Below, in pieces: positions 12,602 to 30,816 of a DNA stretch of 33,117 bases. The stretch is from Pigmentiphaga sp. NML080357. Lineage in GTDB: Bacteria > Pseudomonadota > Gammaproteobacteria > Burkholderiales > Burkholderiaceae_B. A model generated the notes under the pieces. It did no database searches. It saw nothing but the letters and a program-made list of their open reading frames with translations, and was not told where the DNA came from. Both the position numbers and the translations under genes were made by a program. Each line of letters starts with the position of its first letter. Within the stretch, counting starts at the first letter, position 1. The stretch covers positions 1-33,117 of the forward strand of contig NZ_NINW01000023.1 of NCBI RefSeq assembly GCF_002188465.1, written 5' to 3'.

Positions 12602-12705
12602 ACGATGCCATGGCCCGGCACCGGTCAATGTGAGGGCATTCTAGTCGCACGGCCAGTAGCGCATATTCCTAGAGTAGCCACGGTCGTGTGTAAATGTAAG
12701 CCTCA

Positions 12706-13738: not shown

Positions 13739-14713
13739 CTAGTCGAGGGAGATGGCGGCCTGCTTGACGACGGTGTCGAAGCGCTGGGTATCGGTTTTCA
13801 TGGCCTGGGCCAGGTCGGCGGCATTGGCCGGCCAGGCCTCGAAGCCGAAGGTGTCGAACTGCTTGCGCACGTCGGGCTCGACGACGGCTTTGGCCACGCC
13901 GCCGTTGATGCGGTCGATCACGGCCTTGGGCGTGCCCTTGGGCGCGAACAGCGCGACCCAGGTCTTGAGCTCGAAGCCCGCGGGCCCGCCGGCTTCGGCC
14001 ACGGTGGGAATGTGGCCGTACTGGGCCAGCCGCTTGGGCGCGGCCAGCGCCAGCAGTTTCACTTTCTTGGCCTGGTAGAGCTGGGCGACGGTGGCGGCGG
14101 TGCCGAAGGCCCAGTCCACTTCGCCGGTGGCAACGGCGGTGTAGAGCTGGGGCAGCTCCTTGAAGGGCACGTGCGTCATCTGGGTGCCGGTCTGGGTCTG
14201 GAACATGGAGGCGCCGATGTGGGCGACGCTGCCCATGCCCCAGGTGCCGTAGGTAAGGTTGCCTCCCTTGGCCTTGGCGGCGGCGATGAGGTCGCCGACG
14301 TTGTTCCAGGGCGAGTTGGCCGGCACCACGATGAAGAAGTAGGTGGTGTAGACCGGGGCCACGGGCTCGAAATCGGCCACGGGGTCGAAGGGCAGTTTCT
14401 TGTACAGGTGCGGATGCAGGGTCATGTGGGTATTGTCGACCACGACCAGCGAATAGCCGTCGGCGGCGGCCCGCTTGACGTCGCCGATGGCGAGCCAGCC
14501 GTTGGCGCCGGGCTTGTTCTCGACGATGAGGGGCTGCCCCCACGCCTTGGAGAGTTTCTCCCCGACCAGGCGGGTGACGGCGTCCGGTCCGCTGCCCACG
14601 GAGTACGGCAGCACGGCGCGGACGGGCTTGGCGGGATAGCTGGCGGTCTGGGCCCAGGCCGGGACGGCCAGGATCATGGCGATGGCGGCGGCGCCGCGCA
14701 GGATGGTTTTCAT
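13739..14713 (-). CDS. Bug/TctC-family periplasmic solute receptor
   Basis: A secreted solute-binding protein of the Bordetella uptake gene family, which usually binds carboxylates and in most cases is not encoded with its own transporter. The 324-residue protein starts with a signal peptide, probably cut after AWA (MKTILRGAAAIAMILAVPAWA). YPAKPVRAVLPYSVGSGPDAVTRLV follows in shorter blocks, with VENKPGANG, LPFDPVADF and HVPFKELPQLYTAVATGEVD, all typical of the family. An AGGAGA site precedes the ATG. The ligand is unknown; an aromatic acid or its ester fits the operon. No TctA/TctB membrane genes are present. Confidence 0.93.
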   Translation of the reverse strand: MKTILRGAAAIAMILAVPAWAQTASYPAKPVRAVLPYSVGSGPDAVTRLVGEKLSKAWGQPLIVENKPGANGWLAIGDVKRAAADGYSLVVVDNTHMTLHPHLYKKLPFDPVADFEPVAPVYTTYFFIVVPANSPWNNVGDLIAAAKAKGGNLTYGTWGMGSVAHIGASMFQTQTGTQMTHVPFKELPQLYTAVATGEVDWAFGTAATVAQLYQAKKVKLLALAAPKRLAQYGHIPTVAEAGGPAGFELKTWVALFAPKGTPKAVIDRINGGVAKAVVEPDVRKQFDTFGFEAWPANAADLAQAMKTDTQRFDTVVKQAAISLD

Positions 14714-14765
14714 GGATGTCTCCTCGGTCTTGTGTGGGTATGGACGTGGTCTTGGGTAAGCGTGC

Positions 14766-15926
14766 TCACGCCGTTGCCGGCGTATCCGTGCGTTCGTGGC
14801 AGGCCATGGCCTCGCAGGCTGCCGCGAAATGCGGATCGCGCCGCCTGAGGTCGTCGTGGCTGACCTGGCCGGTACGCCGCATGTAGTCGTAGGCGAAGGC
14901 CACCGGGTCCAGGTGCATCTTGGCGGCGACGTTCTCGTACCAGTCCAGGCTGCGGGCGGCGGCGGCCTGGAAGCTGGACGAGGCGGGCCGCCGCTGCGCC
15001 TCGAACGCGGCGAAGGCGGCCGGCAGGTCGCCGGGGTGGCTCGCCACGCCTTCGCTCAGTGCGATGGCGTCCTGCATGGCCATGCGGGTGCCGGACCCGA
15101 GCGAGAAATGCACGGTGCGCAGCGCATCGCCCAGGAGCACGATGTTGCGGTAGCTCCATTGGTCATTGCGGACGATGTTGGCTTCGAACCAGAGCGACCG
15201 GTTGGTAAGCAGCTCGTTGCCGCCCAGCTCGGGACGGAACACCTCGGCGCAGTAGCGCCGGCTCTCTTCCTCGCTCGCGCGGTCCAGGCCGGCCCGGCGC
15301 CAGGTGTCGGGGTCGACCTCGACCAGGAAGGTGCTGAGCTCGGGACTGTACTGGTAGCTGTGGGCGATGAAGACGCCGTGCGGCGTCTCGCGGAAGATGA
15401 GCGATACGGGGTGGAAGCGCTGGCGCGTGCCGTACCAGGCGAATTTGTTGCGGCGCTTCTCGAAGCTGGGGCGGAAATGATGGGCGAACTGCGTGCGCAC
15501 GGCGCTGTTGCCGCCGTCCGCGGCCACCACCAGGTCCACCTCGCTCGCCAGCTTCGAGACGTCCTCGATGCGGCGGCCATGCTCGATGCTTATGCCTTGC
15601 GCCCGGCACGCATCCTCCAGGACCTTGAGCATGTCGATGCGCGACGTGCGCGAAAAGTGGTTGCCATGCACCTGGACATGGGTGCCGCGATGGACGATTT
15701 CCATGTAATCGCAGCGTTCGTGGTGGGCAACGAAGGTCCGGAAGAACTCCGGGTCGGCTTCGCGCAGGAAGGCCAGGCCGACGTCGGAGAACACCACGCC
15801 CCAGCCATAGGTGGCGCCGGCGGGGTTCTGCTCAAAGACCTGGATCCGGTGGGAGGGATCGCGCTTCTTGGCCAGCAACGAGAAATACAGGCCGGCCGGC
15901 CCGGCTCCGATGACGGCGATTTTCAT
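14766..15926 (-). CDS. FAD-dependent aryl-CoA hydroxylase (salicylyl-CoA 5-hydroxylase-like)
   Basis: A single-component flavin monooxygenase of 386 residues with GAGPAG (7-12), the NADPH/FAD motif AADGGNSAVR (135-144) and the FAD ribityl motif GDALRTVHFSLGSGTR (266-281). The stretch GATYGWGVVFSD and the HGNHFSRTSR block are typical of the group that hydroxylates CoA-bound substrates (salicylyl-CoA 5-hydroxylase, and the N-terminal half of anthraniloyl-CoA monooxygenase) rather than free phenols. The adjacent ligase and thioesterase support a CoA substrate. The ATG overlaps the thioesterase stop as ATGA. Substrate identity is inferred. Confidence 0.85.
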   Translation of the reverse strand: MKIAVIGAGPAGLYFSLLAKKRDPSHRIQVFEQNPAGATYGWGVVFSDVGLAFLREADPEFFRTFVAHHERCDYMEIVHRGTHVQVHGNHFSRTSRIDMLKVLEDACRAQGISIEHGRRIEDVSKLASEVDLVVAADGGNSAVRTQFAHHFRPSFEKRRNKFAWYGTRQRFHPVSLIFRETPHGVFIAHSYQYSPELSTFLVEVDPDTWRRAGLDRASEEESRRYCAEVFRPELGGNELLTNRSLWFEANIVRNDQWSYRNIVLLGDALRTVHFSLGSGTRMAMQDAIALSEGVASHPGDLPAAFAAFEAQRRPASSSFQAAAARSLDWYENVAAKMHLDPVAFAYDYMRRTGQVSHDDLRRRDPHFAAACEAMACHERTDTPATA

Positions 15927-16399
15927 GATGCAAGGCTCCCTGCCGCCGCGGCCTCGCAGGCGGCTTGGTAAGAAGACAGCGCCCGGCGCAGCGCGTCGGG
16001 AACGGGTATGGCGCGGCGTTCGCCGCGGGCCACGCAGATGGGCGTCAGCTTGGCGACGAAGGCGATTTCGCCTGTGGCGGTCGTGGCGGTGATGTCCAGC
16101 ACGTAGGTGCGCTGGCGGATCTCGTCCACGGTGACGCGCATGTCGAATTCGTCGTCCGGCCACAGCGATGCGCGGAAGTCGAAGGACAGCGCCCGGCTGG
16201 GTGTGCCGAAGCCCTGCTCGTCCTTCATCCTTTGGGGGGTCGATTCGAACAGCGTGCCGTAGAACAACTCCACGGCCGAGATGAGGTACTCGCCGAAGGT
16301 CACCGTGTAGACCACGCCGGCGGGATCGCAATCGCCCCACTTGACGCGGCGGCGGACGACGAAGGGGGCAAGGGAGACCACGTGTTCGGTGCTGATCAT
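15923..16399 (-). CDS. Hotdog-fold acyl-CoA thioesterase (4HBT family)
   Basis: A 158-residue single hotdog domain with the classic active-site motif WGDCDPAGVVY at residues 21-31, Asp25 matching the catalytic Asp of 4-hydroxybenzoyl-CoA thioesterase. The rest follows the fold (FDFRASLWPDDEF, VTVDEIRQRTYVLDITA, CVARGERRAIPVPDALR). It lies between the ligase and the hydroxylase, overlapping both by ATGA, so the three are tightly coupled. The natural reading is that it frees the hydroxylated aromatic acid from CoA after hydroxylation, as the thioesterase is thought to do in CoA-dependent salicylate degradation. Confidence 0.9.
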   Translation of the reverse strand: MISTEHVVSLAPFVVRRRVKWGDCDPAGVVYTVTFGEYLISAVELFYGTLFESTPQRMKDEQGFGTPSRALSFDFRASLWPDDEFDMRVTVDEIRQRTYVLDITATTATGEIAFVAKLTPICVARGERRAIPVPDALRRALSSYQAACEAAAAGSLAS

Positions 16400-18087
16400 G
16401 GCCGCGCCCCCGCCGACACGCCGGCCGCCTCGGCTTCGCGGGCCAGCTTGTCGGCGATCATCTGCTTGAGCGCCGGCTTGTCCAGCTTGCCCACCTTGGT
16501 CACCGGGAAGCTGTCCAGCACCTCGACCCGCTCGGGACACTTGTACTTGGCCAGTCCCTGCGCGACCAGGAATTCCATCAGTTCCTGGACCGTGGGCGCG
16601 CGCTGGCCCGGGCGGGTCACGATATAGATGCAGCCCTTCTCGCCATAGACAGGATCGGGCATGGCGACCAGCCGGGCCTCGGCAACCGCCGGGTGGGCGC
16701 TGACCAGCCCTTCCACCTCTTCGCAGCCGATCTTCTCGCCGCCGCGGTTGATGTTGTCGCGCAGGCGGCCTTCGAAGGTGTAGCAGGTGACGCCGTCGAT
16801 GACATGGGCCGTCATCATGTCGCCCGTGCGATAGAAGCCGTCCGAGGTATAGGCCTTGGCATTGGCCTCCGGCGCGTTGAAAAAACCCGGCAGGGTCGAC
16901 GGGCCGCGGAAGCACAGTTCGCCCATCTCGCCGGGCGCGGCGGGCTGCTCGCTGTCCGGCAGCAGCAGCCGGATCTCGTCCTCGGGACAGCCCGAAGTGC
17001 CTTGCGTGTGATGGCGCATGAAGGCCGGCGCGTCGGGCGGCGATCCGAGCAGCAGCCCTTCGGTGATGCCGAACAGGTTGGAGCACGGCACGCCGAGGTG
17101 GGCCTCGAGGCGGTCGGCGCGGCTCATGGTGGTGAACAGCCGCAGCGACGACAGGTCGTGCCGGGCCAGGTCCGGATACGTCATGATCTGGGGCGCAATG
17201 GGGCCGATGGACACGGCGCGGGTGACGCGGTGCGCCTCGATCAGGGTCAGCATGCGCGGCAGGTCCACGCGCGGCATCAGCACCGCCGACGTCCCCATGG
17301 CGAACACCGGCATCAGCACGTATAGCTGGGCCGCGTTGTGCAGCAGGGGCAGCGCCCACATGAAGCGGTCGTCCTCGCTCTGCTTGTACCGCCGCGAGCA
17401 AGCCAGCGCATGGCCGAGATACTCGGCGTGGAACCGCGGAATGATCTTGGGCACGCCGGTCGTGCCGCCCGACAACTGGAAACTCAGCACGTCGCCGAGC
17501 GCGGGCCCTTCCGCGGCCAGCCGCCGCCGGGCCGTCTCGAGCGGCATGCCGTCGATCAGCGCGCGCAGGGAAAGGTCGCCTTGCGCCGGTCCGCGGGCGA
17601 CCACCAGGTGCGTCAGCGTATCGCTGGCGGCCGCCATCTTGCGGGCGAAAGCGGCCAGGTCGAAGCCGCTGCTGAAGTCGGCCTGCACGAAATAGCCGCG
17701 CGCGCCGGACTGGCGCACCAACTGGCCGATTTCCAGTTCGCGATGCTGGGGCAGCGAGCACACCGGCACGATGCCGGCCTTGTAGCAGGCGGCCAGCGCC
17801 AGCACCGTCTCCAGCGTGGTGCCCATCTGGAAGATGGCGCGGTCGCCGGGACGCAGGCCCGCCTGCAGCAGCGCGGCGCCCAGGCGTTCCGACTGCTCGT
17901 CCAGTTCACGAAAGCTGAGCCGGCCTTCGTCGCTGATGAACGCGTCCTTCTCCGGCAATCGCGCGGCCGTCGCGCGCAACGCGTCGCCCACCGTGGACCG
18001 CATCCAGGCGCCGCTGGCCAGGTAGCGGCGCGCGTCGGCCTCGGGATGATAGATGACCCCTTCTATCGGGTACCGTACGTCTTGCAT
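16396..18087 (-). CDS. Aryl-AMP/CoA ligase (2,3-dihydroxybenzoate-AMP ligase-like)
   Basis: An adenylate-forming enzyme of 563 residues that activates an aryl carboxylate with ATP. It has the phosphate loop SGGTTGVPK (206-214), LLHNAAQ (248-254) at the aryl pocket, LFGITEG (338-344), YRTGD (419-423) and the catalytic lysine K534 in VTKVGKLDK. Overall it is closest to the EntE/DhbE group, which includes SdgA, the salicylate-activating enzyme of Streptomyces. No carrier protein is nearby, so CoA is the likely acceptor. A strong GGAGGAGA site precedes the ATG. The substrate is likely salicylate or a similar ortho-substituted benzoate, by inference. Confidence 0.9.
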   Translation of the reverse strand: MQDVRYPIEGVIYHPEADARRYLASGAWMRSTVGDALRATAARLPEKDAFISDEGRLSFRELDEQSERLGAALLQAGLRPGDRAIFQMGTTLETVLALAACYKAGIVPVCSLPQHRELEIGQLVRQSGARGYFVQADFSSGFDLAAFARKMAAASDTLTHLVVARGPAQGDLSLRALIDGMPLETARRRLAAEGPALGDVLSFQLSGGTTGVPKIIPRFHAEYLGHALACSRRYKQSEDDRFMWALPLLHNAAQLYVLMPVFAMGTSAVLMPRVDLPRMLTLIEAHRVTRAVSIGPIAPQIMTYPDLARHDLSSLRLFTTMSRADRLEAHLGVPCSNLFGITEGLLLGSPPDAPAFMRHHTQGTSGCPEDEIRLLLPDSEQPAAPGEMGELCFRGPSTLPGFFNAPEANAKAYTSDGFYRTGDMMTAHVIDGVTCYTFEGRLRDNINRGGEKIGCEEVEGLVSAHPAVAEARLVAMPDPVYGEKGCIYIVTRPGQRAPTVQELMEFLVAQGLAKYKCPERVEVLDSFPVTKVGKLDKPALKQMIADKLAREAEAAGVSAGARP

Positions 18088-18120
18088 GGCGGCGTCTCCT
18101 CCGCAGGTGGATCAGTCTTG

Positions 18121-19059
18121 TCACTCGGGGACGATGCGCGCGCAGTCCCGGTCCAGCGTCTCGATGCGGCCCTGTACCCCGCCGGTGAAAAGCCCGTACC
18201 AGATCGCGGGCTTCAGGCCCAATGTCTTGCGGCGGAACTCGACGGGTCCGTCGCTTTCGATCCGGTCGTACTCGCCCGCCGCCTCGACCCGGCAGTCGCC
18301 CCGCGCGCGGGCGTCCTCGACGATGGATGCGAACTCGCGGACGCGGGGAACGAAGATGCGCACGAGTCCCGTCCCGGGCGTATCGCCGGGCCGCACATGC
18401 GATGCCACCAGCCTGGCCTTGCGCGACCAGATCTCCGCAATATCGGTCACCTTCCGCCCAGCCGCGTGCGCGTCGGCTTCCGCCTCCATCGCAGCCTGCA
18501 GCGTCAACTGGCCGTCCAGCGCATCCACCTGCCCCAGCGGGCGCAGCTTGCGGGTGAACTCGACGAAGTAGCCGTTGGGGTCGCGCACGTAGATGGATTC
18601 GATCACCTCGTGCGTGGTCTCCACCGATACCTGCAATCCGGCCGCCTCCAGCTTCTGCTTCCAGGCCCGCAATTCCTCCTGCCCTTCCACCAGCCATGCG
18701 GTATGCGTCGCATCGAACACGTGGTCATCGGGCACGGGCGGCATGGGGGGACGGTCGCGCATGCCTTCCGGCGGCTCCGAGCCCAGGTAGTAGAAGAAGG
18801 CAATGGTGCTGCCGCGTCCGCTGTCGAAGAAGAAATGCAGGAAATCCGGATGCGTGGCCGGTCCCCAGCCGCGCGCGGAGATCACATGGACCAGCGGGAG
18901 GCCGAGAATGTCGCGGTAGAACGCGACGGTCTCGCGCAGTTTCCAGGTAGGACGGGCGGTATGGTCGACGCCTCGCAGCACGAGCCCGCGGGCGGAAAGC
19001 GGCGCAGTCCCGGCCTGGCCGTCCTGGCCGGCCGGGCTTGCGCGTTCAATGGTAGTCAT
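18121..19059 (-). CDS. VOC-fold protein with extradiol-dioxygenase-like metal site
   Basis: The 312-residue protein has two vicinal-oxygen-chelate modules in its first 175 residues (GVDHTARPTWKLRETVAFYR; THTAWLVEG; YVRDPNGYFVEFTRK). Candidate metal ligands are His33, His119 and Glu167, in the same places as the 2-His-1-Glu set of type I extradiol dioxygenases. The remaining 140 residues do not look like a further VOC domain; I do not recognise them. It may open a hydroxylated ring in the pathway or act as a lyase or glyoxalase. I chose the ATG at 19059 because AAAGGGA precedes it. It sits second in the operon. Function beyond fold is uncertain. Confidence 0.75.
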   Translation of the reverse strand: MTTIERASPAGQDGQAGTAPLSARGLVLRGVDHTARPTWKLRETVAFYRDILGLPLVHVISARGWGPATHPDFLHFFFDSGRGSTIAFFYYLGSEPPEGMRDRPPMPPVPDDHVFDATHTAWLVEGQEELRAWKQKLEAAGLQVSVETTHEVIESIYVRDPNGYFVEFTRKLRPLGQVDALDGQLTLQAAMEAEADAHAAGRKVTDIAEIWSRKARLVASHVRPGDTPGTGLVRIFVPRVREFASIVEDARARGDCRVEAAGEYDRIESDGPVEFRRKTLGLKPAIWYGLFTGGVQGRIETLDRDCARIVPE

Positions 19060-19085
19060 GGCGTTCCCTTTCCTGTCGATGTTGA

Positions 19086-20351
19086 TCAGTTCGCAAACCG
19101 CTCGCGCAGCCACGCCGCCAGCTGGCGTCCGGCCTCGTAGCGGCCCGGCTCCTCGCCCTCGGCAAGCGCGCGGCCGTGGTGGTCGCCCCGCACGCGCAGG
19201 TGGCGCTTGTCGCGGGCGGCCAATGCGTCATGGATGGCGCGCACGTCCGCCGGAAAGCAGGCCTGGTCGCCCGTGTACTCGATGATCAGCGTGGGCTGGA
19301 CGATGGCCGCCGCCGCGGCGGCCAGGCTGGCGTTGGACGACAGGCCGGACCAGGTCGACAGCCAGCTTTCCGGCGTGCAGAACCGCGCGAAGCCGACGGC
19401 GCCGTAGTTGGACGCATACGGGTCCCGCCCCCAGAGCGACCCGGGATGGCGATCCGACGGATCGAGGCTCAGGTCCAGGCAGCGCAGGTCGGCGTCCGTG
19501 CGCCATACCGTCATCACCGGCGTATGGGCGCCCAGCCGGCGCTCGGCTTGCGTGGCGTCCTCGCGTCCCTTTAGCGCCTTGCGCGCCGCCAGGCGCTGGG
19601 CGATCAACTGCCGGGCCAGCGCGTCCAGGCGCTCCACCCGGGCGCGCTGCGCCCGGCGGTAGCGCTCGACGAAGGCGGGCGCATAGCGCGCCTGGCCGCC
19701 CGGCCGGTAGCCGTTGTCGGGATTGAGGGGATCCAGGTCCGGGTCGACCGACAGCGCATCTCCTTCCTCCGGCACCGAGGGATCGATGCAGTTCATCAAC
19801 AGCGCGCCCTGCCCCGGGTGCGGCCCGACCAGGACGAGCCCGTGGACAGCCGGCATGTCGAGCTCGGCCAGGCCGGCCGGCTTGCCGCCGGGCGTGCGCG
19901 CGATGCGCTCGGCGCCGGGCAGCGCGGCCTGCTGGACGTAGAAGGCGTACAGACCCGCGCCGCCGGAGTTGCCCAGCAGCACGATGCGCTCGAACCCCTG
20001 CGCGCGCAGGAAGGCCAGCCCGGCCGCCACGTCGTGCAGCGCGGTCTCGTGCTCCAGCCGCAGGTCGTTGCCCACGGAGCGCGCGCCTTGCGACCAGGCG
20101 GCGCAGCCGGCGCCGACGATGTCGGGAATGAGGTAGTGGCAGGCCATGAACTCGCGCGGATGCATGACGCATACGACGGTACGGGGCCGCGGGCCGGCCG
20201 GCAGGTAGAGCGAGCCGGTGGTGGCCGCGCCGTCGTCCGTGCGCAGGACCACGTTGCGGGTGGTAGTGCCCGGCGGCAGGTCCCGGGGATTCCAGTCGGT
20301 GTTCAAGAAGCCTGCGGTGACATGCTGGGCTGCGCTGGCGCCGGTGTTCAC
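19086..20351 (-). CDS. Alpha/beta hydrolase, first gene of the catabolic operon
   Basis: A serine hydrolase of about 421 residues. It shows GNSGGAG (127-133, nucleophile Ser129) in the GxSxG-type elbow and an Asp in LIIEYTGDQACFP. The likely catalytic His is in VRGDHHGRALAEGE near the C-terminus. VVCVMHPREF suggests an oxyanion loop. A GTG start at 20351 is chosen because AGGAG lies 7 nt upstream, whereas the in-frame ATG at 20399 has no such site and falls in the promoter. No signal peptide, so cytoplasmic. It may split an ester or amide that releases the aromatic acid used by the operon, or a ring-cleavage product; the sequence does not decide. Confidence 0.85.
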   Translation of the reverse strand: MNTGASAAQHVTAGFLNTDWNPRDLPPGTTTRNVVLRTDDGAATTGSLYLPAGPRPRTVVCVMHPREFMACHYLIPDIVGAGCAAWSQGARSVGNDLRLEHETALHDVAAGLAFLRAQGFERIVLLGNSGGAGLYAFYVQQAALPGAERIARTPGGKPAGLAELDMPAVHGLVLVGPHPGQGALLMNCIDPSVPEEGDALSVDPDLDPLNPDNGYRPGGQARYAPAFVERYRRAQRARVERLDALARQLIAQRLAARKALKGREDATQAERRLGAHTPVMTVWRTDADLRCLDLSLDPSDRHPGSLWGRDPYASNYGAVGFARFCTPESWLSTWSGLSSNASLAAAAAAIVQPTLIIEYTGDQACFPADVRAIHDALAARDKRHLRVRGDHHGRALAEGEEPGRYEAGRQLAAWLRERFAN

Positions 20352-20399
20352 GATGCGTCTCCTGGGATTCTGCGGATCGATACAGCCGCGTTTCGTCAT

Positions 20400-20458
20400 A
20401 TTCGACTATTTTTTGACTTCACTGTCAATACTCGTTGAAATTTAGACAGATATGTCAA
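20400..20458. promoter_or_regulatory. Divergent promoters with two TetR-type operators
   Basis: Two inverted repeats share one half-site: TTGAC-N6-GTCAA at 20413-20428 and TAGAC-N6-GTCAA at 20443-20458, centres exactly 30 bp apart. Leftward, TTGACA (20423-20428) and TCGAAT (20400-20405) are 17 bp apart and serve the catabolic operon. Rightward, TTGACT (20413-20418) and TGAAAT (20436-20441) are also 17 bp apart and serve tetR. The first operator covers both -35 boxes and the second covers the tetR start region, so repression of both directions by TetR is likely. Confidence 0.65.
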
Positions 20459-21294
20459 ATCAAGGCGCCGACAGCACCTCTTTCCCTCGGAGAACGGCCC
20501 TTCCCCATGCCATAATCCGGCCTCAGGCCATCGCCTGTACGGCCCACCCTCCTGGAAAATCCCTATCCGTGAACGAGGCTCCCACCAAGACGACGATGAA
20601 AGGGGAAGTCCTGCGCAGCGCCATCCTGGATGCCGCGGCCAAGCTCTTCATCGAACGCGGCACGGGCGGCACGAGCATGCAGGACATCGCCGAATCGCTC
20701 GGCCTGAGCCGCACTGCCGTCTACTACTATTTCAAGAACAAGAACGCGATCCTGCGCGCGCTGACCGAAGAGGTCCTGATCCCGGCCAAGCAACTGGCCA
20801 ACGATGCCGTCGCGCGCAAGGACCAGGATCCGACCGAGGCCCTGCAATCGCTGGTCACGCAGTATGCGGAGCTCATCCTGTCGCGGCCGGCGGAGTTCCG
20901 CGTGGCCGACCGCAACGAGTCGGACCTCACGCAGCGGCAGCTCGCATCGATGCAATCGGCGCGGCGCAGCGTGCTCGCGGATTTCAGCGACGTCATCGAA
21001 CGCGGCATCGAGCTCGGCCATTTCCGCATGGTCGACGCGCACGTGGCGGCGTTCAGCCTGATCGGCATGTGCAACTGGACGGCGTGGTGGTTCAAGCCCA
21101 GCGGACGGCTGAGCAGGCAGGAAGTGGCCCAGGCCATCGCCGACATGGCCATTCATGCGCTGCGGCGCGACGAATCGCGCCGCCCGCGCCTGCCGGACGT
21201 AAAGGAATCGCTGCGGTTGCTGCGCGAGGACCTGGCCTACCTGGAGAAGCTGGTGCTACCCGAGGATGACACCTCCTCGGGCCAGCGCAAGTAG
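20452..21294 (+). CDS. TetR/AcrR-family transcriptional regulator
   Basis: A one-component regulator with an N-terminal HTH (VLRSAILDAAAKLFIERG; MQDIAESLGLSRTAVYYYF) and a helical ligand domain. Divergent placement suggests that it represses the catabolic operon and itself. The start is uncertain. The ATG at 20452 gives 280 residues but lies inside an operator, lacks a Shine-Dalgarno site and adds about 47 unusual residues before the HTH. GTG at 20569 and ATG at 20596 give family-like lengths and a leader of over 100 nt. The last 21 codons and stop lie in the 69-bp repeat also found at 27673-27741. The ligand may be an aryl-CoA or aromatic acid, by context. Confidence 0.88.
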   Translation: MSNQGADSTSFPRRTALPHAIIRPQAIACTAHPPGKSLSVNEAPTKTTMKGEVLRSAILDAAAKLFIERGTGGTSMQDIAESLGLSRTAVYYYFKNKNAILRALTEEVLIPAKQLANDAVARKDQDPTEALQSLVTQYAELILSRPAEFRVADRNESDLTQRQLASMQSARRSVLADFSDVIERGIELGHFRMVDAHVAAFSLIGMCNWTAWWFKPSGRLSRQEVAQAIADMAIHALRRDESRRPRLPDVKESLRLLREDLAYLEKLVLPEDDTSSGQRK

Positions 21295-21298
21295 GCCT
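21230..21298. repeat. 69-bp direct repeat, left copy (3' end of tetR)
   Basis: A perfect 69-bp match to 27673-27741 in the same orientation, starting ACCTGGCCTAC and ending AAGTAGGCCT. Here it encodes the last residues of the TetR protein ([20 protein letters not shown]) and its stop. With the right copy it brackets the 6.4-kb islet. Confidence 0.95.
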
Positions 21299-21328
21299 GC
21301 GCCATGAAGCCCTCAGAGACCCACTCGT

Positions 21329-22390
21329 TCACCGCGCATTACGCGCCAGCGCCTGAGCCGCGTTGAACACCGCCTCCACCACCGTCGGTTCGACTGCCCG
21401 CATGATAAAGACGAGGCGCGACTGCCGGTTTTCGTCGGGCCACCGATCCAGCGGTACAGCGGGATGGAATATGTGCTGGACACATTGGACGACAACGGGA
21501 TCCCCCTCGACATTGAGGATTCCTTTCATGCGCAGCATGTCCGGGCCGCGTAGCGCGGTGAGCATTTCCATGGCGCCTGTGATGGCAGGCCATGTGAAGG
21601 GCTCGTCGAACCGCAGCGACATCGTGCGGATGTCCTGCAGGTGGGGGCGCAGCGGCTTGTCTTCGACGTCGTCCTGGTCGCCGGGCGCATCGAGCGCCGC
21701 GCCCAGGAAACTCAATGCCTGGGCGGACAGGCGGGTGCTGGCCAGTCCCAGCCCCGTAAGCTGCTCAGGCTCCACTTGCCCATGCTGGACGCGCAGCACG
21801 CCGGCGCTGGCATTGATGGCTTGCAGCGCCCGTTCCAGCGAGGCGGCGTCGTCCGGCGCCGCGAGATCGGTCTTGGTAAGCAAGATGCGGTCGGCCAGTG
21901 CGACTTGCTTGACCGCCTGGGGGAACTCCTCCAGTTGCTGCCCGCCATTGACCGCGTCGACCAATGTGATGATGCCGTCCAGCCGGAAGTGGGCGGCCAG
22001 CATCGTATCGCTAAGCAGGGTCTGCACGACGGGCGCGGGGTCGGCCAGGCCGGTGGTTTCGACCATGACGCGGTCAAAATCTGGAATGGCGCCGGCCCGG
22101 CGCTGTCCGAAAAGTTCGCGCAGGGTTTCCTGCAGGTCGGTCCGGACGGTGCAGCAAATGCAGCCGTTGGCGAGCACGGATACGTTCTCGGACGAGAACG
22201 AGACGAGATCGTGGTCGATGCCGATTTCGCCGACTTCGTTGATGACGACCGCCGCGTTCCGCATTGACGGATGCGTGAGCATCCGCGCGAGCATCGTGGT
22301 CTTGCCGCTGCCGAGGAAACCCGTTACCAGGGTCAGGGGAAAGCGGCCCGCCATCGGATCGGGCGAGCCTGGATTCATGGGAGAGCTCAT
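21329..22390 (-). CDS. CobW/G3E-family GTPase (metal chaperone type)
   Basis: A G3E P-loop GTPase of 353 residues. It has Walker A GFLGSGKTT (24-32), the metal-binding GCICC motif with Cys77, Cys79 and Cys80, the Walker B/switch region VMVETTGLADP, and a C-terminal CobW domain (RMKGILNVEGDPVVVQCVQHIF). Proteins of this type load metal, often zinc, into a client enzyme. No cobalamin genes are present. Being in one operon with an LVIVD propeller and opposite an amidohydrolase-like enzyme suggests a local client. Its ATG overlaps the upstream stop as ATGA. It is last in the minus-strand islet operon, ending 31 bp from the left repeat. Confidence 0.9.
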   Translation of the reverse strand: MSSPMNPGSPDPMAGRFPLTLVTGFLGSGKTTMLARMLTHPSMRNAAVVINEVGEIGIDHDLVSFSSENVSVLANGCICCTVRTDLQETLRELFGQRRAGAIPDFDRVMVETTGLADPAPVVQTLLSDTMLAAHFRLDGIITLVDAVNGGQQLEEFPQAVKQVALADRILLTKTDLAAPDDAASLERALQAINASAGVLRVQHGQVEPEQLTGLGLASTRLSAQALSFLGAALDAPGDQDDVEDKPLRPHLQDIRTMSLRFDEPFTWPAITGAMEMLTALRGPDMLRMKGILNVEGDPVVVQCVQHIFHPAVPLDRWPDENRQSRLVFIMRAVEPTVVEAVFNAAQALARNAR

Positions 22391-23643
22391 CCGATGTTCA
22401 TTTCAAGAATATAAAGGCCGCCGCAGAATCGATCGACCGTATAGACGATGCGGCGGTCGTCGACGTAGACATCGTTGAGCTGAATCGCACCGACGGGCGA
22501 CAGCGCCGGCGCAGCCGGGACGTAGTAGGCCAGCTCCTGGACTTGCCAGGGATTGCTGGTGTCGTAGACGCGTACGCCGGCGTTGAAGAAGGTGCCGATG
22601 ATGATGTGGTCCGAGCGGAACGAGCAGGGCGCCGGCAGGTTCTCGTGCAGATTGTGGGCGCCGAAGCGGCCGCCCCGTCGCGCGAAGGCCTCGACCGGAG
22701 GCGCTGGGAAGGTGCCGATCGGGACCGGGTTGCCTTCGTTGCGGGCATCCACGACCCAGACGAGCTTGGGCCAGTCCGCGCCATTGTCCTGGACGCATTC
22801 GTCGCTCACGATCCACAGATCGCGGCTGAAAAGCGGCAGCACCGTATGGGTGAAGCCGTTGAAAGGCGGCGAGTGGTTCCAGCTCGACACGACACGGGGG
22901 GCGCTCATGTCGGAGATGTCGAGCACGATGGAGCCGCCGTCGATATAGCCGATGTAGGCGCGGTCGGGGCGTTCGGGAAAGACGTTGGTGTTGTGCACGC
23001 GAAAGCCTGTGTCGAACTGCTTTGGCAGGCGGGCCGGGGCCTCGGCGCCGTCGCCGGCACGGGTGCCCGGCAGCCACCAGCGGCCGGCTTCCACCGGGCG
23101 CGAAGGCTCGCGCACGTCGATGATGCGGTAGAACTGGTCGTCCAGCGGATTGCGCGGCTCGAAGTCGGGCGCGCCGGAGGCCAGGTGGACGAACTGCCCG
23201 TCGACGAACCACAACGCATGCACGCCTCGCGAATGCGGCCCCGAGCAGTCGAAATGCGAGACCAGGCGGGGCGACTCCGGCTTGCTGATGTCGAACAGGT
23301 CGAAGCCGGCGGGTTTCATGCCCGGTGACTGCGTCTGGTAGGCCACGGCCATGAGGTCGCCGCTGATTTCCAGCGAGTTCGAACGTACCTTCATGTGCGG
23401 AAGTTCGGTCTGGACGATCACGCACGGTGCGCGCGGGTCGGTCACGTCGACGCCGGTGAAGTTCTTCGGCGCGGCCTCGTGCGCCAGCCATAGGATGCGT
23501 CGGCCGTCGGCGCATTGTTGCATGGCGATGCCTTCGCCCAGGCCGCCATAGCCTTGCAGCTCATGATGGGCAAGCAGCGTCATGTTGCGGGCCATGGACT
23601 TGTCGGCGCGCGCGGCGAGGTTGGGTGTGGGGTAGCGGTTCAT
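22387..23643 (-). CDS. LVIVD-repeat beta-propeller protein
   Basis: A 418-residue protein made of repeated blade-like units such as VDVTDPRAPCVI, FDLFDISKPESPRLVSHF, YRIIDVREPSRPVEAGRWW, SIVLDISDMSAPRVVSSW, VWVVDARNEGNPVPIGTF and VRVYDTSNPWQVQELAYY. These match the LVIVD repeat, predicted to form a beta-propeller. Conserved-looking histidines (CSGPHSRGVHALW, HNTNVF, FTHTVLP, GAHNLHENLPAP) could bind a metal, as in selenium-binding-protein-like propellers. No signal peptide is visible, so a cytoplasmic enzyme or binding protein is likely. The function is unknown. Coupling to the CobW GTPase hints at a metal-dependent activity. Confidence 0.8.
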   Translation of the reverse strand: MNRYPTPNLAARADKSMARNMTLLAHHELQGYGGLGEGIAMQQCADGRRILWLAHEAAPKNFTGVDVTDPRAPCVIVQTELPHMKVRSNSLEISGDLMAVAYQTQSPGMKPAGFDLFDISKPESPRLVSHFDCSGPHSRGVHALWFVDGQFVHLASGAPDFEPRNPLDDQFYRIIDVREPSRPVEAGRWWLPGTRAGDGAEAPARLPKQFDTGFRVHNTNVFPERPDRAYIGYIDGGSIVLDISDMSAPRVVSSWNHSPPFNGFTHTVLPLFSRDLWIVSDECVQDNGADWPKLVWVVDARNEGNPVPIGTFPAPPVEAFARRGGRFGAHNLHENLPAPCSFRSDHIIIGTFFNAGVRVYDTSNPWQVQELAYYVPAAPALSPVGAIQLNDVYVDDRRIVYTVDRFCGGLYILEMNIG

Positions 23644-23650
23644 GTGTCGA

Positions 23651-24427
23651 TCATTGGCGCAACAGGCGCGTGACTTCCCGGGCTGCGGTTTTCAGTTTTG
23701 GAAGAATGCCGCGGATGCGTTCATCGGTCATGCGCGCTTGCGTGGTAGCGACGGCAAGGGCCGCTATGGGGCTGCCCGCGGCGTTGTAGATAGGCAGGCC
23801 GATGGCGCGCACGCCAGGCGCCGCGTGATTGCCCGTGACGGCGTATCCGGAAAGACGGGCCTGGCCGACCAGTTCCAGCAGTTCGTCCGCGTCGAGATCG
23901 CCATAGGCGCCCAGGCGCGGGGCGACGGCCTGGATGACCGTTTCGATCTCTTCTTCCGGCAGCGCTGCGAGCAGCGCCAGTCCTCCGGCGCTCACGCCGA
24001 GCGGCTGGCGGCTGCCCAGCGGCACCGACGGCGTCTGAATCGGGTAGGGGCCCTGGGTGCGGGATATGCAGACGGCGTCATAGCCGCTGCGCAGGAACAG
24101 GAAGGTCGTGTCGCCTGTCTGCTCCGCCAGCCAGTCGCACACCGGCTGGCACACTTCCTTCAGATTGAACTGGTGCGTTGCAGAAATACCCAGTTCGAAC
24201 AGTAGCGGCCCGAGGGTATAGCGGCGCGACCGGTCGTCCTGTTGCAACAGTCCTTCGATCGTCAGCGCTTTGAGCAGCCGGTGCGCGGTCGGCCGCTGCA
24301 GGGCCAGTTCGCGGGCAACGTCCACCAGGCGCACGCCTTCTGGCGCTTGAGCCGCCACGATCTGCAAAGCCCGGACCGCGCGGCTGACGGTCTGGGCGCC
24401 ATGCACATCGATGGTCGTCGTGGCCAT
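23651..24427 (-). CDS. IclR-family transcriptional regulator
   Basis: A 258-residue regulator with an N-terminal winged HTH (VSRAVRALQIVAA; LVDVARELALQRPTAHRLLKAL) and a C-terminal IclR effector domain (FELGISATHQFNLKEVCQPV, GVSAGGLALLAALPEEE, VRAIGLPIYNAAGSPIAALAV). I use the ATG at 24427; a TTG at 24445 overlapping the Bug stop is possible. It lies inside the islet operon between the Bug receptor and the propeller gene. It probably controls the divergent islet promoters at 25417-25738, where IclR-like sites are visible. The inducer is likely the imported compound or its hydrolysis product, by inference. Confidence 0.92.
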   Translation of the reverse strand: MATTTIDVHGAQTVSRAVRALQIVAAQAPEGVRLVDVARELALQRPTAHRLLKALTIEGLLQQDDRSRRYTLGPLLFELGISATHQFNLKEVCQPVCDWLAEQTGDTTFLFLRSGYDAVCISRTQGPYPIQTPSVPLGSRQPLGVSAGGLALLAALPEEEIETVIQAVAPRLGAYGDLDADELLELVGQARLSGYAVTGNHAAPGVRAIGLPIYNAAGSPIAALAVATTQARMTDERIRGILPKLKTAAREVTRLLRQ

Positions 24428-24441
24428 GGGTCTGGCTTTCT

Positions 24442-25416
24442 TCAATCCAACGTGACGTTGGCGAGCTTGACTGCCTGCGCCATGGCTGTGGCCTGCGATT
24501 TCAACAGCCTGTCGAACTCCGCGGGCGTGCTGGCCAAGGCGTCGGCGCCGGCATTGGCCAGGGTCTGCTTCATCTCCGGCGATTCGAGCGCTTTCCTGAC
24601 CTCCTCGTTCAAGCGGGAAACGACGGCGGGCGGCATGCCCTTGGGACCGATCAGGCCGCTATACAAGACGATTTCCAAGGGTATGCCCTGTTCCTTGAAG
24701 GTAGGTACATCGGGCATCGCGGCCACCCGCTTGGCCGTTGTTACCGCCAGCGCATGGATTTTTCCTGCTTTCGCCTGGGCGACGGCGGGCGGCATGCTCA
24801 AGAAGCTATAGGTCACTTCTCCGGCTACCACGGCTTGCACCGAGGGCGCGCCTCCTTTGTATGGCACGTGCAGAGAATCGATGCCCATGGCCTGTTTGAA
24901 GGACTCGCCAGCAAGATGCATGATGGTGCCATTGCCCGAGGAGGCGTAGCTTACCTGGCTTTGTTTTTTCTTGGCCAGTTCGACGAGCGACTTGACGTCG
25001 CCGGCCTTGGAGCCAAGGCTGGAAACCATCATCAACGGCGTCGAGGCGACGAGGCTGATCAGGCTGAAGTCGTTCAGCGCATCGAACGGCAAGCGCTTAT
25101 AGGCCTCGGCATTGATCGCATGCGTCGTCATATCCTGGAACAACAGGGTGTAGCCGTCCGGCGCGGCCTTGGCGACGTAGGCCGAGGCGATGGTGGTGCC
25201 GGCGCCGGGCCGGTTTTCCACGATGACGCTCTGGCCCATCTGAACCGACAGCCGCGCCGCAAGCGCCCGGGCCAGCACGTCGGAAATGCCGCCGGGCGGA
25301 AAGCCGGTGACGATGGTGACGGGCCTAACCGGGTACGGTTGGGTTTGCGCGGAAGCAGGAGCGAGGGAGGTCGCGCAGAGCAGCGAGCAGGCGAGCGAAA
25401 TAGTGGCTATTTTCAT
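24442..25416 (-). CDS. Bug/TctC-family periplasmic solute receptor (islet copy)
   Basis: A 324-residue secreted receptor with a signal peptide ending ASA-Q (MKIATISLACSLLCATSLAP then ASA). It shows Bug-family blocks YPVRPVTIVTGFPPGG, VENRPGAGTTIAS, RLPFDALNDFSLIS, HVPYKGGAPSVQAVVAGEV and ALAVTTAKRVAAMPDVPTFKEQG. It differs clearly from the receptor at 13739-14713, so it is not a duplicate. It is first in the islet's minus-strand operon and presumably binds the substrate of the two hydrolases on the opposite strand. No membrane transporter genes accompany it. Confidence 0.94.
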   Translation of the reverse strand: MKIATISLACSLLCATSLAPASAQTQPYPVRPVTIVTGFPPGGISDVLARALAARLSVQMGQSVIVENRPGAGTTIASAYVAKAAPDGYTLLFQDMTTHAINAEAYKRLPFDALNDFSLISLVASTPLMMVSSLGSKAGDVKSLVELAKKKQSQVSYASSGNGTIMHLAGESFKQAMGIDSLHVPYKGGAPSVQAVVAGEVTYSFLSMPPAVAQAKAGKIHALAVTTAKRVAAMPDVPTFKEQGIPLEIVLYSGLIGPKGMPPAVVSRLNEEVRKALESPEMKQTLANAGADALASTPAEFDRLLKSQATAMAQAVKLANVTLD

Positions 25417-25738
25417 GGTTATGAACCAGGGCGGTGGATGGGTCGCCCGTCAGGGCGGAATAGTCCGGACCACTCTATAAGTCGGCAATTTTCACCGTCA
25501 ACACATTCGTCGAATGTTTCTCTATTTGGAACTTAAGACATGCATGACGGTGCGCCGCGCACCAACGCCGGCCATGGCATGCGGGTTCCGGATCACTGTT
25601 GGTGCGGCTCGGCGGCGCGCCCGACCCAGTCGTCCAGAGGTGTCCAATATATGGAACTTCAGGCGGCTGGCGTTGACCTTGGCGGACGGGCATGAAGATC
25701 ATGCAGGGTCTCAGTAACTTCCCCTACCAAAGCGCATC
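25417..25738. promoter_or_regulatory. Divergent islet promoter region with palindrome and IclR-like sites
   Basis: This 322-bp gap separates the Bug operon from the deacetylase gene. Leftward, TTGACG (25496-25501) and TATAGA (25474-25479) are 16 bp apart. Next to that -35 is a perfect palindrome, ACATTCG-T-CGAATGT (25503-25517). Two copies of ATNTGGAACTTNAG lie at about 25524-25537 and 25649-25662. The second is part of TGTCCAATATATGGAACT (25641-25658), which resembles known IclR-type operators. Rightward a weak TTGACC (25673-25678) has no good -10. No open reading frame here is convincing. Confidence 0.55.
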
Positions 25739-26635
25739 ATGACCCAACCCATCGGCTCGAGCGTCCTGGCTCGCGCACCCTATCAGTCCATCGTGCGTCG
25801 TCCCCGCCTGACCTTGCCGGGCGACGCGCGGGTCGTCCTGTGGAACATTGTCAACGTCGAAGTCTGGGAGCCGACTGCAGCCATGCCGCGGGCGGTGCTC
25901 TCTCCTCCCATGGGCGCGCCCATGCTGCCGGATGTTCCCAATTGGGCCTGGCATGAATACGGCATGCGGGTGGGCTTCTGGAGGATCCTCGATGCTTTGC
26001 GCGCGCGTTCGATGCCGGCCAGCTTTGCGCTCAACGGCGCGGCAATCCCCCGTTACGAGGAAGTCTGCACCGCGGCGCGGGACGCAGGCTGGGAATTCAT
26101 GGGCCACGGCCTCGTGCAGCGCCCGATGCATAAGGTCGAGGACCAGCGTGCCGCCATACGGGAAACCATCGATGAGATCCAGCGCTTTACCGGCAAGGCG
26201 CCACGCGGCTGGGAGAGCCCGGGCCTGACTGAAACCGACGACACTGTCGACTATCTGGCCGAGTGCGGCATCGAGTACGTCGCGGACTGGGTCCTGGATG
26301 ACCAGCCCGTCCGCTTGCGCTCCTCCAAGGGGCCGATGACGTCGATTCCTTATACCGTGGAACTCAACGATGTGGTGATTTCAGCTGTGCAGCAGCATCC
26401 GTCCGACGAAATGCTGCGCCGGGGCAAGGCACACTTCGATCGTTTGTACCAGGACAGCGCAGATACGCCGCGAATCATGGCGATCTCTGTTCATCCCTAT
26501 CTGAGCGGCGTACCGCATCGCATTGGGTACCTGGAACAGCTCTACGACCACGTGCTGTCCCACGAAGGCGTCCTGGTATGGACCGGAGAGCAGATCCTGG
26601 ATTGGTTCAATGCGCAGCAGCCGGAGGGAAAATGA
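25739..26635 (+). CDS. Polysaccharide-deacetylase-fold hydrolase, PuuE/cyclic-imide-hydrolase-like
   Basis: A 298-residue NodB-fold (CE4-like) protein of the branch that includes PuuE allantoinase and cyclic imide hydrolases, which open amide rings rather than deacetylate sugars. It shows VVLWNIVNVEVWEP, WHEYGMRVGFWRILDALR (71-88), PASFALNG, GWEFMGHGLVQRP (with the GHG motif at 122-124) and GWESPGLTETDDTVDYLAECGIEYVADW, all characteristic of that branch. No signal peptide, so cytoplasmic. It overlaps the asparaginase-like gene by ATGA, suggesting ring opening followed by amide hydrolysis. The actual substrate is not known. Confidence 0.85.
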   Translation: MTQPIGSSVLARAPYQSIVRRPRLTLPGDARVVLWNIVNVEVWEPTAAMPRAVLSPPMGAPMLPDVPNWAWHEYGMRVGFWRILDALRARSMPASFALNGAAIPRYEEVCTAARDAGWEFMGHGLVQRPMHKVEDQRAAIRETIDEIQRFTGKAPRGWESPGLTETDDTVDYLAECGIEYVADWVLDDQPVRLRSSKGPMTSIPYTVELNDVVISAVQQHPSDEMLRRGKAHFDRLYQDSADTPRIMAISVHPYLSGVPHRIGYLEQLYDHVLSHEGVLVWTGEQILDWFNAQQPEGK

Positions 26636-27645
26636 CCTTGCCGCGTGTGCTGGTGGTGACCCTGGGCGGCACCATTACCATGACTGCGGACGATGGCGGC
26701 GGCATTCGTCCGACGCTCGATGGAGCGCAATTGGTGAAGGCCGTGCCGCAGTTGGAGCAAGTGGCCCGGATCGACGTGGAGACGCCTTTCATGTTGCCGG
26801 GTGCGTCGTTGACCCTGGGGCATTTGTGGCAGGTCGCCCAGTTGTTGCGGCAGAGACTGCGCTCCGGCGAGTTCGCTGGCGCCGTACTGGTGCAGGGCAC
26901 GGACACAATCGAAGATACGGCCTTTGTCATGGACGTGCTGCTCGACTTGGAACGGCCCGTCGTCGTAACCGGCGCCATGCGCGGCGCGCAGGCGCCCGGC
27001 GCGGATGGCCCCGCCAATCTGCTCGCAGCCGTTACCGTCGCGGCAAGCGCGGATGCCGCGCGTTGTGGCGTACTGGTGGTTTTGAACGACGAAATTCATG
27101 CCGCCCGCCTGGCCCGGAAATCGCACACTGCGCTGCCCAGCGCCTTCACGTCGCCCGGCGCTGGCGCCTTGGGACTCGTAGCCGAAGGGCAGGCGCGGAT
27201 AGGGTGCCGGCCGGTCCGCAATCGTGTCGAGTCGGTTCTGGCCCGGATGGCGGATCCGGCCGAGCCCGAATGGGTGCCCGTGGCGCAGCTATCCGTAGGG
27301 CTGGATGAAGACGCGCGTATTGCCGCGACCTTGGAAGACCTGGGTTATGGCGGAGCGGTTGTCGAAGCCATGGGCGCCGGACACGTGCCGGCAAAGGCTG
27401 TCGAGGCGTTGGCCTCGCTTGCCGGCCAGATGCCGGTCGTACTGGCAACCAGAGTGCCGGCGGGAAGAGGATTCACGCGGACCTATGGGTTCGCCGGATC
27501 CGAAATCGATCTGCTCGCCCGCGGGTTGTTGCCAGCAGGAAGCTTGTCTGCAAGCAAGGCCCGCCTGCTGTTGTCGCTGTTGCTGGCTACAGGCGCCATG
27601 GCCGACGACATCCAGGCCGTGTTCGGGGCGCGGTTCTTCCCGTAG
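26632..27645 (+). CDS. Asparaginase-family amidohydrolase
   Basis: A 337-residue asparaginase/glutaminase-fold protein with both threonine motifs: VTLGGTIT (Thr14) and LVQGTDTIEDTA (Thr90, Asp91), plus Lys163 in ARKSHT. It thus has the full set of catalytic residues. There is no signal peptide. GGAGG lies 5 nt before the ATG, which overlaps the deacetylase stop (ATGA). Because it is coupled to a ring-opening hydrolase, it may act as a half-amidase on the opened product rather than on asparagine. It ends 27 bp before the right 69-bp repeat and is the last islet gene. Confidence 0.9.
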   Translation: MTLPRVLVVTLGGTITMTADDGGGIRPTLDGAQLVKAVPQLEQVARIDVETPFMLPGASLTLGHLWQVAQLLRQRLRSGEFAGAVLVQGTDTIEDTAFVMDVLLDLERPVVVTGAMRGAQAPGADGPANLLAAVTVAASADAARCGVLVVLNDEIHAARLARKSHTALPSAFTSPGAGALGLVAEGQARIGCRPVRNRVESVLARMADPAEPEWVPVAQLSVGLDEDARIAATLEDLGYGGAVVEAMGAGHVPAKAVEALASLAGQMPVVLATRVPAGRGFTRTYGFAGSEIDLLARGLLPAGSLSASKARLLLSLLLATGAMADDIQAVFGARFFP

Positions 27646-27672
27646 CGTGCTTGACTCGCTTAAGCGCTTGGA

Positions 27673-27741
27673 ACCTGGCCTACCTGGAGAAGCTGGTGCT
27701 ACCCGAGGATGACACCTCCTCGGGCCAGCGCAAGTAGGCCT
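27673..27741. repeat. 69-bp direct repeat, right copy (3' end of glpD)
   Basis: An identical 69-bp copy of 21230-21298 in the same orientation. On the minus strand it encodes the last residues of GlpD ([19 protein letters not shown]) and its stop at 27680-27682. On the plus strand it repeats the tail of tetR without the rest of that gene. Sequence diverges at once on both sides of the repeat. Confidence 0.95.
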
Positions 27742-29286
27742 CGGCCAGCCCGCAAAAGGCCTCGACGCACGGATCCGCGCCGGTTTCCTCCCTCAGCAGG
27801 CGCCCGACCTCGGCCGCCACCGCGCGCGCCAGCCGGGCATCGAGGAACAGCAGGCGCGAGCGGCGCGCCAGCACGTCCTCCACGGTGCGGGCGTATTCGT
27901 GGCGCGCGGCGAACCGCACCATGGCTTCGGTCAGCCCGCCGCCCAGGTCTCGTTGGGCGCCGTGCAACGCCAGCACCGCCTCCTGCTCGCTGCCATATCC
28001 CCGGATGTCGGGCATATCGGCAACACGGAGCCGCCCCGGCGCGGCACCCACCAGCGGCCAGTCGGCGGTCGCGCTCGATTTCGCGGTCTTCAGCAGCCCC
28101 GCCGCGATGCATGCGTCGACCGTGTCCTCGGCCATGGCGCGGTACGTCGTCCATTTGCCGCCCGCCACCGTGACCAGCCCGTCGCCGTCGATCCGCACCT
28201 GGTGCTCGCGGCTGATGTTCTTGGTGCTGACGAAGCCGCCCGGACGCACGAGGGGGCGCAATCCCGCCCAGGCGCTGGAGATGTCGTCGATGCCTGGCGC
28301 GCGGGCCAGGTAGCGTCCCGCCTCGTCGAGCAGGAAGGCCACTTCGGCCGACAGCGGCCGCGGTTCGAGCTCGACGCGGGGACGGGGCGTGTCGGTGGTG
28401 CCGATGACGGTCCTGCCCATCCATGGCAGCGCGAACAGCACGCGTCCGTCGCGCGTGCGCGGAATCAGCACGGCGCGATCGCCCGGCAGGAACGTCCGGG
28501 GCACGACGATGTGCGCGCCCTGGCTGAAGGTGACGGTCGGCTCGGCCTGCGGCGTCTCGCGCCCGAGGCCGCGCACCGCGTCCACCCAGATGCCCGCCGC
28601 GTTCACCACGCATTTCGCGCGTATCCCGTATGACCGCCCGGTTTCGGCATCCTCGCAGCGCAGCCCGGCCACCTTGCCGCCTTCCCGGATGAAGTCCACG
28701 GCGGCGCAATAATTGAGCAGCAGCGCGCCCGCCTGCGCGGCCGTGCGCGCCAATGCGATCGCCATCCGCGCATCGTCGAACTGCCCGTCCCAATATTCGA
28801 TCCCGCCGCGCAGCCCTTGCGCCCGCAGCGCCGGCTGTCGCGCCAAGGTTGCGCGCGCGTCGAGCCATCGGGTGCGGCCGAGCCCGGCCTTGCCGGCCAG
28901 GGCATCGTACAGGACCAGTCCTGTCCCGTAGAACGGCCTCTCGCCCAGGTGATAGGCGGGTACGACAAAAGGCAGCGGCTGGGCCAGGTGCGGGGCGTTG
29001 CGCAGAAGGATTTGTCTCTCCCGCAGGGCCTCCCGCACCAGCGGGAAGTTGCCCTGGGCGAGATAGCGCACGCCGCCGTGGATGAGTTTGGTGGCGCGGG
29101 AGGACGTGCCCTTGGCGAAGTCGCGGGCCTCGACCAGGGCCACGCGCAAGCCTCGCGTGGCGGCATCCAGCGCGACGCCCAGCCCCGTCGCTCCGCCGCC
29201 CACCACGGCGAGGTCGTACTCGACGGGTTCGGCCAGGCGCGACAGCAAGGCGGCCCGGTCGGTGCGCCACGGCGCGCCGCTCCCGC

Positions 29287-29302
<16 letters not shown>
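27680..29302 (-). CDS. glpD: FAD-dependent glycerol-3-phosphate dehydrogenase GlpD
   Basis: Oxidises sn-glycerol 3-phosphate to dihydroxyacetone phosphate at the cytoplasmic membrane, passing electrons to quinone. About 540 residues: FAD-binding [22 protein letters not shown] (GGGATG at 35-40), [19 protein letters not shown], a central FAD domain with [22 protein letters not shown] and [20 protein letters not shown], then a C-terminal DAO cap. The ATG at 29302 overlaps the glpK stop by 16 bp, consistent with coupled expression. Its last 18 or so codons lie in the 69-bp repeat, so the C-terminal tail overlaps what was once the tetR 3' end. Confidence 0.95.

Positions 29303-30816
<1,514 letters not shown>

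Follow-up and report, generated by a model that had tools for sequence, protein, structure and literature searches.

Integrative elements that depend on tyrosine recombinases lie between repeats at the 3′ ends of genes, and the gene at the insertion site is restored. The term "insertion with long target duplication" was introduced for Helicobacter pylori by Nobusato et al. 2000, according to passages of PMC1643837, PMC3031569, and PMC4978471. Passages of PMC2884548 describe variable segments with direct-repeat flanks and ascribe much of the diversity to illegitimate recombination, and the part of PMC3240628 used here reports Escherichia coli conjugation experiments with 14 sequenced clones, duplications of 109–950 bp, and capture products with deletions. 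The formation of long target duplications is not explained in the passages cited. In this study, we analyzed a 6,374-bp segment of Pigmentiphaga sp. NML080357, hereafter called the islet, which lies between the two copies of a 69-bp direct repeat at the junction of a tetR-family gene and glpD. The whole stretch of DNA that was analyzed, the 33,117-nt contig NZ_NINW01000023.1, is referred to as the window, and the genome to which it belongs (G000) consists of 59 contigs. We classify the islet as a case of insertion with long target duplication that was followed by spread through recombination. A narrow literature search found no report on insertions at overlapping convergent genes, which leaves room for published cases, and a search on Pigmentiphaga genomic islands found no title on this subject.

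Repeat copies complete two genes that overlap in islet-free relatives

A first-pass annotation of the window had proposed that a perfect 69-bp direct repeat brackets the islet, that its left copy completes tetR and its right copy completes glpD with both genes intact, and that the two genes once converged at a locus that should be found in relatives as a single-copy empty site. The identity of the two copies was confirmed letter for letter, and it was 97% when the pair was stretched to 75 bp. The stop codons and a comparison of protein tails agreed with the proposal for both genes: the left copy contains the final tetR codons with the stop at 21292–21294, and the right copy contains the final glpD codons on the minus strand with the stop at 27680–27682. 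The window contained no other perfect direct repeat that reached 30 bp with a spacing of 0.3–20 kb. A search of G000 itself, which scored 40 of its 81 initial candidates, found the two 69-bp copies and no others among the matches listed. Perfect repeats of 30–104 bp with the same spacing were also found in 784 kb of four related genomes, so the repeat length alone is not unique. The distinctive feature of the 69-bp pair is that it brackets a segment missing from relatives. Its length far exceeds that of the usual transposon target duplications. The probability of zero differences in 69 bp is 0.35 at 1.5% divergence and 0.12 at 3%, and given these values, gene conversion between the copies is not needed.

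The tetR end was searched in 61 genomes, consisting of 60 relatives and G000, and some match was obtained in 18 of them. The search with the glpD block covered 11 genomes of the genus and yielded matches in nine. The match in G010 had only 67% identity, with no tetR in a locus extending about 1.5 kb to each side; glpD was matched in neither G001 nor G007 and was not seen at the tetR-like loci of these two genomes. The tetR–glpD junction was present in eight of the 11 genomes. Two of the eight (G000 and G008) carried the islet, and the other six (G002, G003, G004, G005, G006, and G009) had the predicted single-copy empty site, at which the left and right matches merged over one orthologous stretch of 69 bp (63 bp in G009 and G005). 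BLAST matches to G003, G002, and G004 overlapped by 64–66 bp at this site.

At the empty sites, the coding sequences of tetR and glpD run past each other at their 3′ ends, with an overlap of 58 bp in G002, G003, G004, and G006 and of 52 bp in G005 and G009. The ancestral convergent locus proposed earlier is thereby borne out and refined, in that the two coding ends overlapped by 58 bp. The 58-bp overlap corresponds to positions 8–65 of the repeat and leaves 7 and 4 spare bp at the repeat ends. Because the duplication is longer than the overlap, each gene holds a complete private tail and both are whole; a duplication shorter than the overlap would have truncated one of them. As a rule for convergent overlapping genes, both would stay whole only after a duplication that equals or exceeds the overlap in length. 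The original duplication was either about 69 bp long or had surplus margins that have since decayed.

The islet of a second carrier is an import

Between G000 and G008, 6274 of 6373 aligned bases of the islet (98.4%) and 1330 of 1358 in the adjoining part of glpD (97.9%) were identical; the values were 1841 of 2129 (86.5%) for the left flank and 1396 of 1627 (85.8%) for the right flank. In 200-bp bins, identity was 97–100% at 21.4–28.2 kb, 93.5–100% up to 29.2 kb, and 76–92% outside. G003, G002, and G004, which are near relatives of G008 and free of the islet, were 96.3–96.5% identical to G008 in the left flank, 90.7–98.0% per 150-bp bin to the right of the block, and just 65–89% in the glpD part.

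Diagnostic sites, at which these three genomes agree with one another and differ from the window, numbered 254 on the left and 407 on the right. The left sites of G008 comprised 238 of the clade type, seven of the window type, and one other, followed by a closing run of eight window-type sites; the last clade-type site was at 21271, and the window-type run started at 21276. The right sites comprised 224 of the window type, six of the clade type, and five others through 29099, and 157 of the clade type, nine of the window type, and six others from 29124 onward. Since the islet and the glpD part are nearly identical to those of G000 and the flanks are close to those of the empty-site relatives, a block of about 7.8 kb, from the left repeat to glpD, was imported into G008 from a G000-like donor by homologous recombination. 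Sharp switches to the donor type at both ends, between native flanks, are the mark of such an import. The first-pass suggestion of a recombination-mediated capture holds in part, namely for this second carrier with its mosaic structure and mapped crossovers.

Cargo of the islet and its relatives

Profile searches took in only the six main proteins among the islet reading frames. The islet consists of four minus-strand and two plus-strand genes in a divergent layout, with margins of 30 and 27 bp. Relatives of the LVIVD-repeat protein were found in 38 of 268 family genomes, including G000 (E ≤ 0.001), and a scan of named genomes gave 99, of which 80 were retained. Gene order was compared over 80 loci, many of which were too short to show an order, leaving out matches with less than 38% identity. 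The six-gene order of the window was found in L100, from a Ramlibacter metagenome-assembled genome (MAG), and in L102, from a Polaromonas MAG, and partially in the 4.7-kb locus L101. In a tree of the LVIVD protein with 88 rows (the window and 87 loci; five fetched loci duplicating named records were excluded), the window and G008 joined these three loci, from two Ramlibacter MAGs and one Polaromonas MAG, with support of 100/97. By these comparisons, the cargo groups with MAGs of the Comamonadaceae.

Eleven loci were fetched from family genomes, and seven of them (L093–L099) had a differently ordered deacetylase–LVIVD–CobW–TctC set, accompanied by an asparaginase gene in two (L094 and L096). 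G146 had an additional second LVIVD locus without a deacetylase match. The islet families may point to amide or cyclic-imide breakdown, which is a guess on our part; a literature search found no pairing of cyclic imide hydrolase with polysaccharide deacetylase.

Table 1. Features of the islet and its flanks in the window (ORF, open reading frame)
Feature	Position	Strand	Basis and remarks
tetR-family regulator	20452..21294	+	Pfam TetR_N, TetR_C_24; longest ORF, true start may be downstream; tail compared with seven relatives
Left 69-bp copy	21230..21298	+	tetR 3′ end; left crossover of the G008 import inside the corresponding copy
Predicted hairpin, 64 nt	21234..21297		Folding prediction; nearly whole repeat; right copy has the same sequence
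Left crossover interval of the G008 import (homologous position)	21272..21275		Diagnostic sites; inside left repeat
Islet	21299..27672		6,374 bp; absent from six empty sites (three empty genomes confirmed in a second comparison)
CobW-type GTPase	21329..22390	-	Family search
LVIVD-repeat protein	22387..23643	-	Family search; groups with Ramlibacter and Polaromonas MAG homologues
IclR-family regulator	23651..24445	-	Family search
TctC-family solute-binding protein	24442..25416	-	Family search
Polysaccharide-deacetylase-family hydrolase, PuuE-allantoinase-like	25739..26635	+	117 bits, far under the equivalog cut-off of 424.6
Asparaginase-family amidohydrolase	26632..27645	+	Start 26632 chosen; longest ORF from 26578
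Right 69-bp copy	27673..27741	-	glpD 3′ end
glpD ORF, glycerol-3-phosphate dehydrogenase	27680..29398	-	Pfam DAO, DAO_C; NCBIfam PRK12266 327.5 bits, below the cut-off of 360; start approximate
Right crossover interval of the G008 import (homologous position)	29100..29123		Diagnostic sites; within glpD

Mobile elements in the window and survey for similar insertions

The first-pass annotation had noted no integrase, transposase, or tRNA, and this was confirmed: no recombinase or transposase family matched any of the six main islet proteins, and ARAGORN detected no tRNA gene across the window. Rfam gave no match on the window at gathering scores. Transposons and insertion sequences (IS) bring a transposase and leave a short target duplication; here, the six proteins include no transposase, and the duplication is 69 bp. 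The tyrosine or serine recombinase that marks integrase-borne genomic islands, often located at a tRNA gene, was likewise not found among these proteins. An IS21-type istAB pair was observed at the left end of the contig (461–2277), consisting of IstB_IS21 at 461–1246 and an rve-domain protein at 1243–2277, both on the minus strand; it lies 19 kb from the islet and has no visible link to it. The region 4248–12628 looks like a cell-surface polysaccharide cluster, with four glycosyltransferase-family proteins, a sugar dehydratase/epimerase, UDP-galactopyranose mutase, and an ABC transporter pair.

Insertions of at least 500 bp were surveyed in 12 ordered pairs of G008, G003, G002, and G004 over 184–200 kb per genome. 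The rows count ordered pairs, and one event may recur in several rows. Three of the 30 insertion rows had a BLAST overlap of at least 15 bp, all of which were the islet, and the remaining 27 had 1–60 bp gaps in the comparison genome. Eight further ordered pairs with the window gave ten rows: three were the islet, three were near 31.4 kb of the window with overlaps of 15, 39, and 39 bp, and four had overlaps below 15 bp. The G003 row near 31.4 kb was considered as a sister case and rejected as an alignment-end effect, showing just a 23-bp repeat of 96% identity with another spacing.

Origin of the islet

The islet probably arose when foreign DNA was inserted and 69 bp of the target were duplicated, and it then spread by homologous recombination. 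In the first step, 6.4 kb of foreign DNA with two divergent gene sets, derived from a comamonad-like source, would have entered the G000 lineage or a close relative. Host repair or illegitimate recombination, and no enzyme of its own, would have inserted it where the 3′ ends of tetR and glpD overlap, duplicating the 69-bp target, in a one-off capture that was retained since no gene was lost. In the second step, the left repeat, the islet, the right repeat, and most of glpD passed from a G000-like donor to the G008 lineage by homologous recombination, with the left crossover within the left repeat and the right crossover in glpD. The overlap in the empty sites, the duplicated target that flanks the islet, the grouping of the cargo with another family, and the block import with its crossovers are the parts of this account that are read from sequence. 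We infer that the first insertion was of the G000 type because the two copies are identical in G000; the first host may have been G000 or an unsampled close relative. The joining was presumably carried out by host end joining or replication-linked illegitimate recombination, and selection presumably retained only a lossless insertion. A Ku family protein is encoded in ten of the 11 genus genomes, both carriers among them, which makes end joining possible.

Several observations weigh against this two-step account. Insertion with long duplication was not shown to be a common route, since no second case was found in the 184–200 kb surveyed in each of the four relatives. The presence of Ku is no proof of its use. 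The longest exact matches between the islet margins and the 300 bp downstream of the homologous genes were 7 and 8 bp in L100 and 5 and 6 bp in L102, lengths at which microhomology is unreadable, and the original donor DNA junction is not among known sequences. The empty sites compared are not close to G000, with left flanks about 85–86% identical in G003, G002, and G004. In G009, which has an empty site, tetR is a remnant with a 115-codon open frame, and tetR is hence not always whole within the genus; the matches in this genome (L030 near 2217) skip from window position 14257 to 20946, so that the locus lacks the upstream neighbors of tetR along with the 5′ part of tetR itself. The pooled BLAST identity of the islet between G000 and G008 was 96.3% (6855 aligned bases for an islet of 6374), a value lowered because off-target pieces were counted.

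The duplication might go back to a break at a hairpin or cruciform into which the overlapping convergent gene tails had folded, a route to which we give very little credence. A cut across such a structure and the opening of two capped ends could, speculatively, give a full copy on each side with the foreign fragment joined between them. The hairpin predicted in the repeat has its base 4 nt and 1 nt from the repeat ends, with a z-score of -3.4, and one of 200 shuffles folded as well. Among GC-matched 69-bp windows, the minimum free energy was as low in 16 of 1973, five of which also had an outer span of at least 60; without GC matching, the counts were 376 and 150 of 6298. The six empty-site orthologues formed weaker folds with different pairings (-18.9 to -31.7 kcal/mol), spanning 66 in G009 and G005 and 38–54 in the other four, and 69-mers with stronger folds occurred 104–126 nt away at the same locus. 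The test being post hoc, the fold unconserved, and the neighbors stronger, the hairpin is only a lead. If this route were general, foreign DNA could land without gene loss, and without a mobile element, where convergent gene tails overlap and form a hairpin.

The first-pass annotation had also considered Campbell-type integration, in which a circle (a plasmid or an excised ring) that held the islet together with 69 bp of tetR/glpD junction sequence would have recombined with the chromosome by a single homologous crossover. The relevant part of PMC3240628 ascribes the duplications in the E. coli integrants to single crossovers of a circle whose homologous patch had been shortened, and a repeat-flanked islet could also yield such circles by excision, but the circle would first need this exact junction. 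No match to the 69 bp was found away from the tetR/glpD junction among the matches listed in the 61 genomes (up to 12 candidates scored per genome), and of the 129 plasmid records matching the islet, none held at least 80% of it in one place, the best-ranked place covering 11%. Nor is the G008 import a simple Campbell product, as its right repeat and glpD are of the donor type. This origin is not supported by these results and is unlikely. An integrase acting in trans on the 69 bp as attL and attR at gene 3′ ends is very improbable. Insertion at a 3′ end with gene restoration is generally regarded as typical of tyrosine-recombinase elements, and the repeat contains an 8-bp inverted repeat with a 7-bp spacer (21259–21281); however, comparable inverted repeats occurred in 92 of 2898 69-bp windows of one relative, and against this background, it may be merely a terminator-like hairpin. 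The lack of a recombinase family among the six main proteins and of any other element within the six empty sites also argues against site-specific recombination, and the exact identity of the copies across the coding overlap of two genes favors local duplication. The related proposal of a mobile unit directed at gene 3′ ends found no support either: homologues of the islet elsewhere sit in other gene contexts, and the survey yielded no second insertion with a long duplication.

Alternatively, the islet and its repeats might be ancestral, with the empty sites formed by later precise deletions between the repeats. Such deletion should be possible, since 69 bp exceeds the RecA threshold of about 30 bp given in a passage of PMC2884548. 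Losses would, however, be required in several lineages, G008 has an imported islet that is absent from its near relatives G003, G002, and G004, the cargo groups with Comamonadaceae MAGs, and the origin of the repeat would be left unexplained. We regard an ancestral islet as less probable still.

Comparison with known systems

The two-step account makes the islet a natural example of a foreign gene set that entered a genome without a visible mobile element and without breaking a gene, and then crossed species via recombination in its flanks. The islet is of interest because the duplication fits the gene overlap and a second transfer could be mapped, rather than as a new mobile element. Like the long-target-duplication insertions described in passages on H. 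pylori, the islet is a strain-specific block with a long duplication of its target as direct repeats on either side, where strains without the block have one copy: the segment is absent from relatives, and the repeats correspond to one target in the empty genomes. Unlike the H. pylori cases, which according to these passages frequently involve restriction–modification genes, the islet carries a metabolic gene set (CobW, LVIVD, IclR, TctC, deacetylase family, and asparaginase); restriction–modification cargo is a frequent trait of the class and does not define it. The islet resembles the products of homology-facilitated illegitimate recombination in that foreign DNA would have entered partly via illegitimate joining, but according to the part of PMC3240628 used here, those products generally pair the inserted DNA with a similarly sized deletion, and not a duplication, usually with 3–10 bp of microhomology, and the original islet insertion has no visible homologous arm. 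Direct repeats of a homologous patch also remain in single-crossover (Campbell) integrants, which require a junction-bearing circle; none was present in the plasmid collection searched. The islet differs from tyrosine-recombinase elements in having no recombinase among its six proteins, in the restoration of two genes, and in a repeat listed at this site only. Within the class of insertions with long target duplication, the islet shows a duplication that matches the coding overlap of two genes, together with a subsequent interspecies import for which one crossover maps within a repeat.

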